Below, one piece after another: positions 5,285-9,117 of a stretch of DNA of 64,000 bases. The notes under the pieces were generated by a model. It searched no databases, was not told the DNA's origin, and saw only the letters and a program-made list of their open reading frames with translations. The number at the start of each line of letters is the position of its first letter. The stretch's first letter is position 1. The position numbers and the translations under genes are program-made. The stretch lies in NCBI RefSeq assembly GCF_019977735.1, contig NZ_AP025018.1, positions 7,940,580 through 8,004,579 on the forward strand, in the 5' to 3' direction. Origin of the DNA: Calothrix sp. PCC 7716 (GTDB lineage: Bacteria; Cyanobacteriota; Cyanobacteriia; Cyanobacteriales; Nostocaceae).

Positions 5285-5427
5285 GTGCTGAGTGCTGAGT
5301 GCTGAGTGCTGAGTAAGGAGTTGGGAGTTGGGAGTTGGAAGTAAGGAGTTAGAGAGAATTAAATAAAAATTATTTAACTAATAACTTATAACTCACGACT
5401 CAGCACTCAGCACTCAGCACTCAGCAC
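5285..5427. repeat. STRR heptamer arrays forming a 30-bp inverted repeat
   Basis: Four-fold tandem GTGCTGA units at 5285-5314 face their exact reverse complement at 5398-5427, giving 30-base perfect arms around an 83-base loop that contains GGGAGTT repeats. The right arm starts at the rrf2 stop codon and the left arm lies 15 bases before cysK. Such short tandemly repeated sequences are typical of heterocystous cyanobacteria. Confidence 0.85.
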
Positions 5428-5864
5428 TAAATGTAGTACATAATATCCAATTGTTTGCGTGCATCACGCTTCTCGCACAAATCAGCAAGAGTGTAATTCT
5501 GTAAAACTACATTTGCAGCTTGACGAGCTTCTTGCCAAACTTCTTCAATAACAGAGCTATCTGCTGTCTTTGGTTTAACCTCTTCTTCAGAGCTTCTAAT
5601 ATCAAAACCTTCCAAACAAATTAAAACCTCGTATATTGAAATCTTCCAAGGTTCGCGCGCTAAAAGGTAGCCTCCTTTGGAACCGCGTTGGCTTCTGAGA
5701 ATACCTCCACGTCTAAGAGTCGCTAATAATTGCTCCAAATAACGGTCAGGTATATTTTGCTGTGCCGCAATTTGTCGAATTTGTAATGGTTCTCCGTTTT
5801 GGTACTGGGATGCCAGTTCCAATAATGCTAATATCGCATATTCCGATTTACAAGATAGTTCCAC
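5427..5864 (-). CDS. Rrf2/CymR-like transcriptional regulator
   Basis: This 145-residue protein is an Rrf2-family winged helix-turn-helix regulator: MELSCKSEYAILALLELA, IRQIAAQQNIPDRYLEQLLATL as the recognition region, and RGSKGGYLLAREP as the wing. It lacks the three clustered cysteines that hold the [2Fe-2S] cluster in IscR, so it resembles the cysteine-metabolism regulator CymR. CymR senses O-acetylserine through a complex with CysK, and cysK is the next gene here, which fits that role by inference. A close paralogue is at 35865-36302. An inverted repeat and a box shared with the paralogue lie upstream (5880-5904). Confidence 0.85.
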   Translation of the reverse strand: MELSCKSEYAILALLELASQYQNGEPLQIRQIAAQQNIPDRYLEQLLATLRRGGILRSQRGSKGGYLLAREPWKISIYEVLICLEGFDIRSSEEEVKPKTADSSVIEEVWQEARQAANVVLQNYTLADLCEKRDARKQLDIMYYI

Positions 5865-5879
5865 AGGCGGCCAATTTAT

Positions 5880-5904
5880 TATAGGTATTTCCTATAGTAT
5901 ACTC
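5880..5904 (-). promoter_or_regulatory. Candidate Rrf2 operator upstream of first rrf2 gene
   Basis: Two overlapping signals lie 16-40 bases upstream of the rrf2 start. One is an inverted repeat TATAGG-TATTT-CCTATA (5880-5896). The other is CCTATAGTATACTC (5891-5904), which matches CCTATACTGTATACTC upstream of the second rrf2 gene apart from a 2-base gap. An autoregulatory operator is inferred. Confidence 0.45.
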
Positions 5905-5939
5905 CGGTTCTCCACTGGGGTTTGTTCGGTTTCCCCACA

Positions 5940-5973
5940 AAATAAAATAATTCCCCGCGATATCGCAGGGAAT
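5940..5973 (-). terminator. Probable terminator of the porin gene
   Basis: Read on the minus strand, ATTCCCTGCGATATCGCGGGGAAT forms a GC-rich stem followed by TATTTTATTTTG. It lies about 90 bases after the porin stop codon. Confidence 0.6.
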
Positions 5974-6059
5974 CCCAAATTTTGTTACGTTTTGCTATCT
6001 ATTAGTTTTTCCAAGCAGTTTTGAGCAGAAAGACTAATGATTAGAAACTGCTAACAATT

Positions 6060-7943
6060 TTAGAATGTGAAAGTGGTTCTCAAAGTACCAATGATGGCAT
6101 CATCGTTATTGTTGCTTTGACCAGGAGAGGTCAACCAAATCACACCAGGAGTGATGGAGATATTATCACTAACACGGTATTTATAGAAACCTTCGATGTG
6201 ATATGGTACATCTCTTTGACCACGACCTGCACGATTAAACGAATAAGGTTCGGCGCCTGCGAATATACCAAGTACGTTACCTTTTCTGCCAAAGTCAGGT
6301 AAAGCAATACCAGCACCGTAACTCCAAGCTTCACGGTCATTGTTAGCACCTTGGCTATTTAAGTCGTGGTAAGAAACGAAACCACTGATAGATAATCTAT
6401 CGCTAGGTCTAAATGCAACCGAGGCGCCGTAAGAGTTACTCGAAGTTGCAGTTTCATTAAAGTTAGCTTGGCGAGTACCAACAAGAGGAATATTTGTGTT
6501 TCTTGTCAGACCAGTAGTTGGGCTAGCTATGTCGCCAGTACCACCAAAACCCCCTGCATCGAATAATGTGCTACCTGCACCATGATAACCGTGTACGTAG
6601 GTTGCAGCTAAAGCGATGCGCTCACCCAAATTGAAATTTAATTGTCCTAGCGCTGCATAATTACCACCAAATAAACCTGAGCCAGGGGTAGGAACATTTG
6701 GTCCTTGATTACCACCATTGGGAGTAGGATTATCTGATGCTAAATAACCAACAGTGATAGAACTAGGCTTAAGAATACCGCCACTTCTACCAAATGGAAT
6801 ATTTAACGCTGCACCAGCACCACCACCAATTCGGTATATGGGGTTTTGAGATGCAAAAGTTGATAGGGCACCGTTGCCACCGTCGTAGTCTTCAAAGTAT
6901 GGATTGTTGGTTGCTGCATAGTCTGCATGAACACCACCCGTTGCTGCTACATACAATTGAGCAGGTCCAATAGGCACATAGTAAGCTAACCAATCTAAAG
7001 CTACGCCATTACTGGCATTGCTGCCTCCTATTACGTTAAAGGTTTGAGTTCCTTCAAAAGTACTGTTAACGTCATTTACGTTGCCAGCACCCAAGTCGAA
7101 ACGTCCCGCGTTTCCAGCAGCCAAGCGAGTGTGCAATACATCTCTACCAGTAAAACTGGTTTGTAAGTCAAGACGAATGCGGTTTTGCAGAACTGTGTTG
7201 TTACGACTGTCTACTTGGTCGCCAAATGCGTCGGTTACAGCAAAGATCGCTTCACCCACTAACTTGGTAGTAGTTGAAAACTGGTTTGCTTCTAATTCAG
7301 CAGTGCGTGCTTCTAAGTTGTCAACGCGACCACGTAAGGTTGCTAGTTCTGCCGAGAACTCTTCTTGCAAGCGCTGTAAGGTTGCTAAATCTTCTTTTCT
7401 TACCAAATCAGCGGTTGCGGTTGCAATCAACTCATTAACACGGTCTAAACAAGCGTTTAAACCTGCTGCGAATTCATAACGAGTTAATGCACGGTTTCCA
7501 CGATAAGTACCATTAGGATAACCAGCAATACAACCATAACGTTCTACCAACGATTGCAATGCTTGGAAAGCCCAATCTGTTGGCTGTACATCAGAAAATT
7601 GAGAAACCGATGTTACTTGTCCTTGGGAGTTTCCTTTTCCTTCGTTACCGTACTTATTGATTTGGTCAAGACTGTTGACATTAGTTTGTTGTGGTTGCGC
7701 TTGTGCCAACAAGTCTGTTTTTTGAGCAGTTTCGATGGGGGTAACTGCTGTAAAGACTGATGTTGTCTTTGTTGTGTTGTCTGTGGATGCTGTTAATGCA
7801 GCTTCGTTTGAAGCTACTTTTGACTCTGGTGCATTCACTTGAGTTGTTTTGCTACCAGCTGCAAATGCGGACGTTGACACCAAAAGCGTCGCGCCTAGGA
7901 CTGCTGGGCTTACCACCAAAGATTTCCACAATATATTTGACAT
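6060..7943 (-). CDS. SLH-domain iron-uptake-type outer-membrane porin
   Basis: This encodes about 627 residues of a cyanobacterial SLH/OprB porin. A signal peptide (MSNILWKSLVVSPAVLGATL...AFAA) is followed by a low-complexity linker and an SLH domain (VSQFSDVQPTDWAFQALQ, ALTRYEFAAGL). Then come a coiled coil (EEFSAELATLRGRVDNLEA) and a beta-barrel of alternating residues that ends in the outer-membrane signature TTFTF. The SLH domain anchors the barrel to peptidoglycan, and the pore admits ions or small solutes. I chose the ATG at 7943, because GAGGAG lies 10 bases upstream and the frame above it (MSTRGVRRTIT) lacks signal-peptide character. The ribosome-binding site matches the Yfr1 target sequence. 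Confidence 0.88.
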   Translation of the reverse strand: MSNILWKSLVVSPAVLGATLLVSTSAFAAGSKTTQVNAPESKVASNEAALTASTDNTTKTTSVFTAVTPIETAQKTDLLAQAQPQQTNVNSLDQINKYGNEGKGNSQGQVTSVSQFSDVQPTDWAFQALQSLVERYGCIAGYPNGTYRGNRALTRYEFAAGLNACLDRVNELIATATADLVRKEDLATLQRLQEEFSAELATLRGRVDNLEARTAELEANQFSTTTKLVGEAIFAVTDAFGDQVDSRNNTVLQNRIRLDLQTSFTGRDVLHTRLAAGNAGRFDLGAGNVNDVNSTFEGTQTFNVIGGSNASNGVALDWLAYYVPIGPAQLYVAATGGVHADYAATNNPYFEDYDGGNGALSTFASQNPIYRIGGGAGAALNIPFGRSGGILKPSSITVGYLASDNPTPNGGNQGPNVPTPGSGLFGGNYAALGQLNFNLGERIALAATYVHGYHGAGSTLFDAGGFGGTGDIASPTTGLTRNTNIPLVGTRQANFNETATSSNSYGASVAFRPSDRLSISGFVSYHDLNSQGANNDREAWSYGAGIALPDFGRKGNVLGIFAGAEPYSFNRAGRGQRDVPYHIEGFYKYRVSDNISITPGVIWLTSPGQSNNNDDAIIGTLRTTFTF

Positions 7944-7953
7944 TGTTATTGTT

Positions 7954-7963
7954 CTCCTCACAC
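7954..7963 (-). promoter_or_regulatory. Porin RBS complementary to sRNA Yfr1
   Basis: The minus strand reads GTGTGAGGAG, 10 bases before the porin ATG, and includes its Shine-Dalgarno GAGGAG. This is an exact complement of ten bases of the conserved Yfr1 loop ACUCCUCACAC. In Prochlorococcus MED4, Yfr1 is known to pair with porin (som) mRNAs at this type of site. Regulation here is inferred. Confidence 0.55.
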
Positions 7964-8413
7964 CTCGTGTAGACATTTTGTTTGCTGCAACTAATTGTTT
8001 AGTTAATGCTACTTCTGTTTTTGACTGCTAGATTCAGGCAAAAGTGCCCGCATCTACAATTCTAGTTTTAGCAAATTTAATAGAGTTACGCTAACTGTTC
8101 TCACAGTTAACTTATGCAATAAAGCTGCTTATAACTTTTACATTATAAAGCAACTGTTTTGCCTTCTGACAAGATGATAGCGTTCACATGTCTAACTGTC
8201 ACATACCCAATAAACGATATTTTTAATTACGAATCCATTACTGTCAGTAGATGTTTCTAAAACTGTTTCTCAATTTTTATACATCCGTATCAGTCTAAAT
8301 ACTGAACAATTTTTGATTGCCGTACCATTAATTCGATTATTTTTGATATTTGCTGCAAATTTATATTAAATACTCATCAAAAACACTGATTTTAGTACGG
8401 CGCCACGTCTATT
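7964..8413. other. Porin upstream region, about 450 bp without a gene
   Basis: This AT-rich stretch between the porin start and the pterin dehydratase stop has no supportable gene. The inverted repeat TAACTGT-TCTC-ACAGTTA at 8092-8109 is the only clear structure and could be an operator for the porin promoter. The long interval suggests a long 5' leader or several regulatory sites. Confidence 0.4.
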
Positions 8414-8695
8414 TCAAATTATTTGCGAAATAACTTGAGCTAAGTCAAAATCTTTCTGCGTCAACCCACCTGCATCATGGGTAGTTAAGGTTATTTTTAC
8501 TGTATTATAAGAAATTTCTATATCTGGGTGATGTCCTGCTGACTCCGCAGGCGCCACCAGCTTATTGACAAAATCTATTGCTTGAATAAAATCTTTAAAC
8601 TTACGTGTTGCACATAGCGTCTTTGATTCAACGCTCCATCCATTTAGAACTTGCACACGCTCTTGAATCTCTGATTCGTTTAATAATGGCGCCAT
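8414..8695 (-). CDS. Pterin-4a-carbinolamine dehydratase
   Basis: This is a 93-residue single-domain protein of the PCD/DCoH family (PhhB type), which dehydrates 4a-hydroxytetrahydropterin to quinonoid dihydropterin. The family motif is clear: ESAGHHPDIEISYNTVKITL followed by TTHDAGGLTQKD, with the histidine pair and the downstream His expected at the active site. Many cyanobacteria and plastids carry this protein without an obvious aromatic-amino-acid hydroxylase, so its physiological role may differ from amino-acid recycling. It lies downstream, on the same strand, of a structured RNA region, and may be under that leader's control. Confidence 0.9.
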   Translation of the reverse strand: MAPLLNESEIQERVQVLNGWSVESKTLCATRKFKDFIQAIDFVNKLVAPAESAGHHPDIEISYNTVKITLTTHDAGGLTQKDFDLAQVISQII

Positions 8696-8790
8696 CTTTT
8701 ACATACCTTCTATCTAGTTTGCACTTCATCCTGATATAGGCATTTTACAGCGATTTGTTAATGTTTATGTAAAACAATCCATAAAACTAT

Positions 8791-8828
8791 CCGCCCTTAC
8801 TTAAATCAGGTGACTTAAGCAAAGGCGG
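8791..8828 (-). terminator. 17-bp hairpin at the 3' end of the structured RNA
   Basis: The minus strand folds CCGCC...GUC around an ACCU tetraloop with GAU...GGCGG, 17 pairs including three G-U. The following sequence ATAGTTTTATGG has only a short T run, so it may be a conditional terminator or simply an RNA 3' end. The pterin dehydratase start lies 96 bases further on. Confidence 0.45.
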
Positions 8829-8931
8829 TCTAGTCGGGTCTTCAGGTTGCAACCAGACTGCCGGAAGGAACTCCAAGCATAATCTAGCCACTTAAGCTAA
8901 CTTAGTCAGATAAGCAGACTAAGAGTAACTC

Positions 8932-9003
8932 CTAGAGAACAGCCCCGGCACACAGCCGGCTAACTGCAACCTGATGACCCATGCGTATACTACTTTCTAT
9001 CAT
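8932..9003 (-). CDS. 23-codon ORF in structured RNA (candidate leader peptide)
   Basis: The ORF encodes 23 residues beginning MIESSIRMGHQVAV and ending LCAGAVL. It starts 7 bases after AAGGAGGT (9011-9018), a full-length match to the 16S rRNA anti-Shine-Dalgarno tail. An in-frame ATG two codons earlier (9009-9007) is too close to that site. Codons 8-13 form one arm of the long-range helix, so translation would have to unwind the RNA. This layout is like attenuation or arrest leader peptides. The peptide is not one I recognise. Confidence 0.45.
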   Translation of the reverse strand: MIESSIRMGHQVAVSRLCAGAVL

Positions 9004-9086
9004 GGGCATCACCTCCTTGTTGCCTAAACGGTCTTAGTCTTAAAAGGCAGAAACTTAAAGCTTCCGGGTGTTTATTCCTGTAAACA

Positions 9087-9117
9087 AATATAGCACATAC
9101 GAACGCTAGATTGTCTA
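9087..9117 (-). promoter_or_regulatory. Candidate promoter of the structured RNA
   Basis: On the minus strand, TAGACA (9117-9112) and TATATT (9092-9087) are 19 bases apart, and TGC directly before the -10 makes it an extended -10. It lies just downstream of the psbD terminator, so the RNA would have its own start near 9080. Confidence 0.45.

Follow-up and report, generated by a model that had tools for sequence, protein, structure and literature searches.

In dual-function RNAs such as RNAIII/hld a structured RNA also carries a short translated ORF, and in ribosome-mediated attenuators the translation of a mini-ORF refolds the RNA. SgrS/SgrT and SR1 are described as dual-function RNAs of this kind (PMC5126843) and the cysS uORF motif as an example of an attenuator (PMC8632094). 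For cyanobacteria, the sections of the report on Synechococcus elongatus UTEX 2973 that deal with Sye_sRNA1 describe an abundant sRNA, responsive to light and darkness, with 53 homologues that have conserved secondary structures and lie mostly downstream of psbD or cobB; some of these homologues are reported as confirmed, in Anabaena PCC 7120, S. elongatus PCC 7942 and Synechocystis PCC 6714 and 6803 (PMC6091082). For ncl0160, the corresponding section of a paper from 2016 gives 83 homologues among the genomes compared and a peptide of 23-25 aa with an RBS, and the homologue alignment is read there as that of a conserved, likely translated peptide (PMC4734099). As far as these sections go, neither paper names the other's RNA.

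The window analyzed here is a stretch of 64,000 nucleotides from Calothrix sp. PCC 7716 (contig NZ_AP025018.1, positions 7,940,580 to 8,004,579). An RNA gene, present in one copy in its own genome, spans approximately 9080-8783 on the minus strand of this window, and its parts are collected in Table 1. Read along the minus strand, psbD (10270-9212) is followed by a terminator-like hairpin, the promoter TGTGCTATATT, the Shine-Dalgarno sequence AAGGAGGT, the ORF, the 3' arm of a long-range helix and a 17-bp hairpin. Located 3' of the RNA are genes for a pterin dehydratase (PCD; 8695-8414; Pfam Pterin_4a), an SLH/OprB porin (7976-6060; NCBIfam por_somb, iron uptake porin) and an Rrf2 regulator (5864-5427).

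Table 1. Sequence features of the RNA gene, in window positions.
Feature	Positions	Strand	Remarks
Extended -10 promoter TGTGCTATATT	9087..9097	-	transcription start expected near 9080
Leader motif CCGTTTAGG	9023..9031	-	alignment A1; kept in many lineages, not all
Shine-Dalgarno AAGGAGGT	9011..9018	-	7 bases 5' of ATG 9003; GGAGGTGATG invariant in A1
23-codon ORF MIESSIRMGHQVAVSRLCAGAVL plus TAG	8932..9003	-	codons 9003-8935, TAG 8934-8932
Possible start-codon hairpin GAUGCCCAUG / CAUGGGUCAUC	8973..9010	-	mutually exclusive with the base of the long-range helix
Long-range helix, 5' arm	8935..8980	-	third base of codon 8 to codon 23
Long-range helix, 3' arm	8836..8873	-	covariation in A1
Variable apical region between the arms	8874..8931	-	poor conservation in A1
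3' terminator hairpin CUA-GA-CCGC...GCGG-A-UAG plus U run	8783..8833	-	terminator scan; A1 covariation

The initial annotation could match this RNA to no known family, which holds for Rfam: no family of Rfam 15 reached its gathering score on the RNA or on 15 homologous loci, nothing credible was seen on the RNA at E up to 10, and the scan of the window at gathering score returned one tRNA, located elsewhere in the window. Identity with 6S RNA was ruled out, the 6S match sitting elsewhere in the genome. It does not hold for the literature. Like Sye_sRNA1, the RNA is a free-standing gene with its own start, and the window copy likewise lies 3' of psbD (PMC6091082). In a locus taken to be S. elongatus (L251) the gene order, with genes named by Pfam, is psbD, RNA, PCD and two porins, and the ORF of the second porin begins 2,732 nt 3' of the Shine-Dalgarno sequence, compared to a published spacing of 2,714 nt from the Sye_sRNA1 start site to that of somA (PMC6091082). 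From the Shine-Dalgarno sequence to the end of the U run this locus measures 219 nt, leader extra, and the main Sye_sRNA1 transcript is given as about 200 nt, so that the main band in print may be a processing product or may have been sized roughly (PMC6091082). The published description differs from ours in that its sections on Sye_sRNA1 mention no ORF, peptide or overlap between ORF and helix. Matched on locus, gene order and spacing rather than on sequence, the window RNA is almost certainly Sye_sRNA1 (PMC6091082).

The match to ncl0160 follows from the description of its ORF rather than from sequence or location. Besides the length of 23-25 aa and the RBS, the stop codons are distributed in a similar manner: 47 TAA, 34 TAG and 2 TGA for ncl0160 (PMC4734099), and 78 TAA, 67 TAG and 2 TGA among 147 loci (repeats included) in the present set. 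A few GTG starts are reported for ncl0160, whereas we counted 146 ATG and 1 GTG, the near-absence of GTG being partly due to a search pattern that required ATG. We conclude that the window RNA is very probably ncl0160 (PMC4734099), and that it is a real RNA, published earlier as an abundant and conserved sRNA of cyanobacteria, apparently under two names. Searching the literature for the locus tag, the sequence string or the peptide returned nothing useful, and later papers on the RNA may be missed.

A match beyond chance was obtained by blastn in 57 of 60 related genomes, and none to the RNA in phages or plasmids; the exact pattern had 0 matches in viral contigs. A pattern scan of named genomes gave at least 117 stretches, and among the 80 listed ones that were examined 73 were homologues and 7 were judged to be chance matches. 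The covariance model R1 detected the RNA in 122 of the 386 phylum genomes, including 39 of 43 from the window's family (its own genome counted), 59 of 62 from the other families of the order (98/105 for the order in the phylum sample, own genome included and counted from rows) and 23 genomes in the rest of the class. The sole R1 match outside the class (L228) was taken as chance, as was a 0.003 match in another genome (L233 in G217), which by eye may resemble the release-factor gene prfB. A shorter form is present in 6 of 13 genomes of one family, apparently picocyanobacteria, with none found by the reversed-pattern control. The one-contig genome G019 of the same family as the window had no match at E up to 10; together with G273 it makes up the sampled genomes of one genus of that family (3.8-4.1 Mb), neither of which has a credible match, an apparent loss. 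Some of the matchless draft genomes may owe this to assembly gaps.

Alignment A1 contains 51 rows, omitting three loci without GCGGATAG (L059, L061, L064) and three near copies (L009, L010, L012), and alignment A2 contains 58 rows hand-picked for spread among 122 distinct loci. The 149 loci counted in total include genomes met twice, and the promoter, neighbor and terminator counts were redone on the 139 distinct ones. Two loci (L121 and L142) are shortened, with 137 and 155 nt from the Shine-Dalgarno sequence to CCGC compared to about 195 in the window, and have little apical region; the variable middle part of the RNA thus seems dispensable.

The extended -10 promoter that the initial annotation placed 3' of psbD recurs across the homologues: GTG[CT]TANNNT was found 5' of the Shine-Dalgarno sequence in 95 of 139 distinct loci (102/149 with repeats kept) vs 1.8 expected from shuffles. 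The annotated 17-bp hairpin (8828-8791) with its T run was also detected by a terminator scan. Both halves of the terminator motif were found in 105 of 120 distinct loci and one or both were missing in the other 15; Pseudanabaena-type loci have a different terminator (by eye). The leader motif CCGYUUAGG (9023-9031 in the window, with its homologues) is retained 5' of the Shine-Dalgarno sequence in many loci, not in the most distant ones, several of which have it altered or absent, and it has GACCGC-like bases in common with the 5' arm of the terminator.

The nearest upstream gene was psbD in 35, cobB in 6 and another gene in 49 of 90 loci, so the location mostly downstream of psbD or cobB given for Sye_sRNA1 (PMC6091082) is not reached in this wider set. 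Downstream, the common same-strand order is PCD (where present), a GAF-HD protein (where present), porin, Rrf2 and cysK, with families named on examples; the order of PCD, SLH/OprB porin and Rrf2 (5427-8695 in the window), with cysK in relatives, is common to the S. elongatus-like L251 and heterocystous genomes. In 90 of 112 distinct testable loci, the fetched DNA has one or more of PCD, porin, Rrf2 or cysK downstream of the RNA and in the same orientation. This arrangement, the AGT/TGT codons 5' of the helix and the presence of cysK within the cluster would suit ribosome-mediated attenuation, or a leader function, for the dehydratase-porin-Rrf2-cysK genes in which the Ser/Cys codons 4-5 serve as control codons, and as in known attenuators translation of the mini-ORF would refold the RNA. 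We nevertheless regard such a role as improbable. Of 111 distinct testable loci, 14 have a convergent gene as their next sizeable neighbor (19/112 counting short predicted ORFs), and these 14 loci have the 3' arm motif in 14/14 and the terminator motif in 8/14 cases. The dehydratase start is approximately 0.2 to 1.7 kb away, or no dehydratase is seen, and the Thermosynechococcus-like and picocyanobacterial forms have other neighbors. Convergent loci and differing neighbors indicate that the RNA does not need the PCD-porin-Rrf2-cysK genes. The covarying helix does not overlap the terminator and so offers no evident antiterminator. Unlike an attenuator, the RNA is its own terminated unit without a constant downstream gene. 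The earlier suggestion of an attenuation leader for the pterin dehydratase is therefore mostly unsupported, whereas the alternative raised with it, an independent RNA gene that additionally codes for a peptide, is supported. Judged on these sequence features, the RNA is a stand-alone unit with its own putative promoter and terminator.

The minus strand folds with a z-score of -4.7, none of 100 shuffles being equally stable, and the plus strand more weakly (z -2.5, also 0/100). The comparison of homologues proposed with the initial annotation as a check for compensatory changes did reveal such changes. In the 51 sequences of A1, the 45 pairs of the long-range helix and the terminator are paired in 98.8% of cells, falling to 27-46% when one strand is slid; two-sided changes occur in 21 of the 45 pairs (139 cells), and 0 of 500 shuffles attained any of the five measures. 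The clearest covariation is that of column pair 83/242, with five standard pair types, and the terminator stem covaries as well (A1 columns 262-277/336-349). The annotated 16-position helix between codons 8-13 (8980-8965) and 8836-8851 is real, and it extends further than described (8980-8935 with 8873-8836), its 5' arm consisting of ORF codons 8-23 and stopping just 5' of the stop codon. As the ORF is one arm of the main stem, translation and folding should compete.

An additional local hairpin (CCGGC/GCCGG), also part of the initial annotation, occupies the same bases as part of the long-range helix. It is formable in 98.4% of cells, although its covariation (one two-sided change, equaled by 86 of 500 shuffles) is not above that of shuffles, and it is accordingly neither supported nor excluded. 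The segment 8900-8950 alone folds no better than shuffles (z 0.67). By eye, the helices of the picocyanobacterial forms differ in sequence but share the layout, down to the GA/A internal loop of the terminator stem. This loop is retained while the flanking pairs of the stem (8833-8787 in the window) vary between CUA/UAG, CCA/UGG and GCGA/UCGU (by eye), as if it were read by a protein or engaged in a tertiary contact.

The perfect Shine-Dalgarno sequence in front of a 23-codon ORF was annotated correctly, and both GGAGGTGATG and the ATG are invariant in 51/51 rows of A1. The distance from the ATG to the GGG of the helix is 23, 26 or 32 nt, all 2 mod 3, and this phase is kept in all 137 of 139 distinct sequences possessing the GGG, which is lost in L082 and L127; the automated count was 134/139 before L053, L062 and L108 were corrected from the sequence to 23, 23 and 32 nt. 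Linker insertions were seen by eye in at least three lineages. In the draft-genome locus L062 a 1-nt deletion in the helix shifts the frame.

Codon conservation in the ORF, also raised as a check at the outset, was found for the frame and only weakly for the amino acids. The pN/pS ratio was 0.80 in frame vs 1.16 and 1.13 in the other frames, and 1.01 in codons 2-8 (109 distinct ORFs from 148 loci, with 19 of other spacing dropped; the 148 include the chance locus L228, which is absent from the 109). Amino acid changes were conservative in frame 0, with a mean BLOSUM62 score of +0.37 vs -0.52 and -0.95. The ORF length ranges from 17 to 25 codons and the residues preceding the stop vary by lineage; 17-codon ORFs lacking the last six residues occur in the Thermosynechococcus-like, S. 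elongatus-like and picocyanobacterial forms. The variable C-terminal residues and the shifting position of the stop argue against a sequence-specific arrest peptide and, with it, against the arrest leader considered initially. The Ser-Ser codons 4-5 (8994-8989 in the window) are AGT in 103 and 104 of the 109 ORFs and AGT TGT in picocyanobacterial forms; going by these counts, the two codons are under nucleotide-level constraint, in a stretch without consensus pairing. The kept frame and the conservative replacements, taken together with the weak amino acid constraint, suggest that translation appears to be under selection, the peptide itself less so.

These data bear on two further explanations. 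The locus may be a micro-protein gene that has the peptide as its product, with the RNA structure serving only to tune expression. This is consistent with indels that keep the phase, with conservative replacements in frame 0 and with the published reading of the ncl0160 alignment (PMC4734099). We consider it unlikely given the pN/pS values over the ORF and in codons 2-8, the almost complete lack of synonymous change at the Ser codons, which points to the RNA, and the last six residues missing from the 17-codon forms; furthermore, for the versions tried no relative of the peptide was found in Pfam, NCBIfam or PDB. Secondly, the RNA could be an sRNA that acts in trans by base pairing, its ORF being incidental or hardly used, as might be expected for a free-standing gene with reported abundance and response to light and darkness (PMC6091082), and with leader and AGUAGU conserved at the nucleotide level. 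An incidental ORF is quite unlikely in view of the invariant GGAGGTGATG and ATG and of the phase-keeping indels, and no complementarity to porin, PCD or psbD starts (porin n=16, recognized starts only) was found for the leader or for the Shine-Dalgarno sequence plus linker. The present RNA resembles SgrS/SgrT and SR1 in combining structure and a short ORF on one RNA, (PMC5126843), and differs from them in its weakly constrained peptide and in a main helix that has the ORF itself as one of its arms.

The start codon can be covered by a local hairpin in which GAUGCCCAUG pairs with CAUGGGUCAUC, consuming the GGG needed by the long-range helix. In the alignment 95.3% of its cells are paired, with no two-sided change, and the stability of the window's own hairpin is not above shuffles (z -0.6); L225 is without the CCC of this hairpin (by eye). 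In computed ensembles the mean probability of the AUG being unpaired was 0.11 in the 5' fragment vs 0.58 in the full RNA, and among 127 loci (repeats included) the AUG was more open in the full RNA in 98 and less open in 3. The start codon is thus predicted to be hidden in the nascent 5' end and freed in the finished RNA.

The reading we favor, at a probability of roughly 0.45 and hence tentatively, is that of a stand-alone sRNA gene of the Sye_sRNA1/ncl0160 family that acts in trans through a translation-gated helix switch. The nascent 5' end is predicted to fold into the hairpin that covers the start codon. After synthesis of the 3' arm, the long-range helix would draw GGGUC from the start hairpin, opening the AUG mainly on the finished RNA. 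A ribosome would then enter, melt the helix as far as the stop codon and release the 3' arm, so that ribosome supply would decide whether the RNA stays closed in the helix or is translated and open. Action in trans could proceed via the freed arm, the peptide or both. A ribosome decoy, in which the Shine-Dalgarno sequence of an abundant RNA sequesters 30S subunits, would fit AAGGAGGT as the perfect complement of what we take to be the 16S tail. The reported abundance (PMC6091082) would fit a decoy as well, but a decoy would leave the retained frame, its stop codon and the helix covariation unexplained, and we hold it to be very improbable.

The favored reading of a translation-gated switch draws on the anatomy of the RNA, which supports a stand-alone molecule whose translation and folding are mutually exclusive. 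Two published names, one with a peptide (ncl0160; PMC4734099) and one without (Sye_sRNA1; PMC6091082), apparently for one RNA, are joined here. New in this analysis are (i) the covariation of helix and terminator, (ii) the ORF as the 5' arm of the helix, with a frame that is kept while the amino acids drift, (iii) the conserved promoter, (iv) the 17-codon forms in three other lineages, and (v) the predicted unmasking of the start codon. An orphan RNA is hereby turned into a testable model, and an Rfam family could be built straight from alignments A1 and A2. A bolder and rather unlikely extension is that in this phylum-wide RNA translation itself, and not the peptide, would be the signal, with the finished transcript unmasking its start and the ribosome freeing a trans-acting 3' arm. 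If true, this would make an RNA that is among the most abundant in cyanobacteria a reader of ribosome supply.
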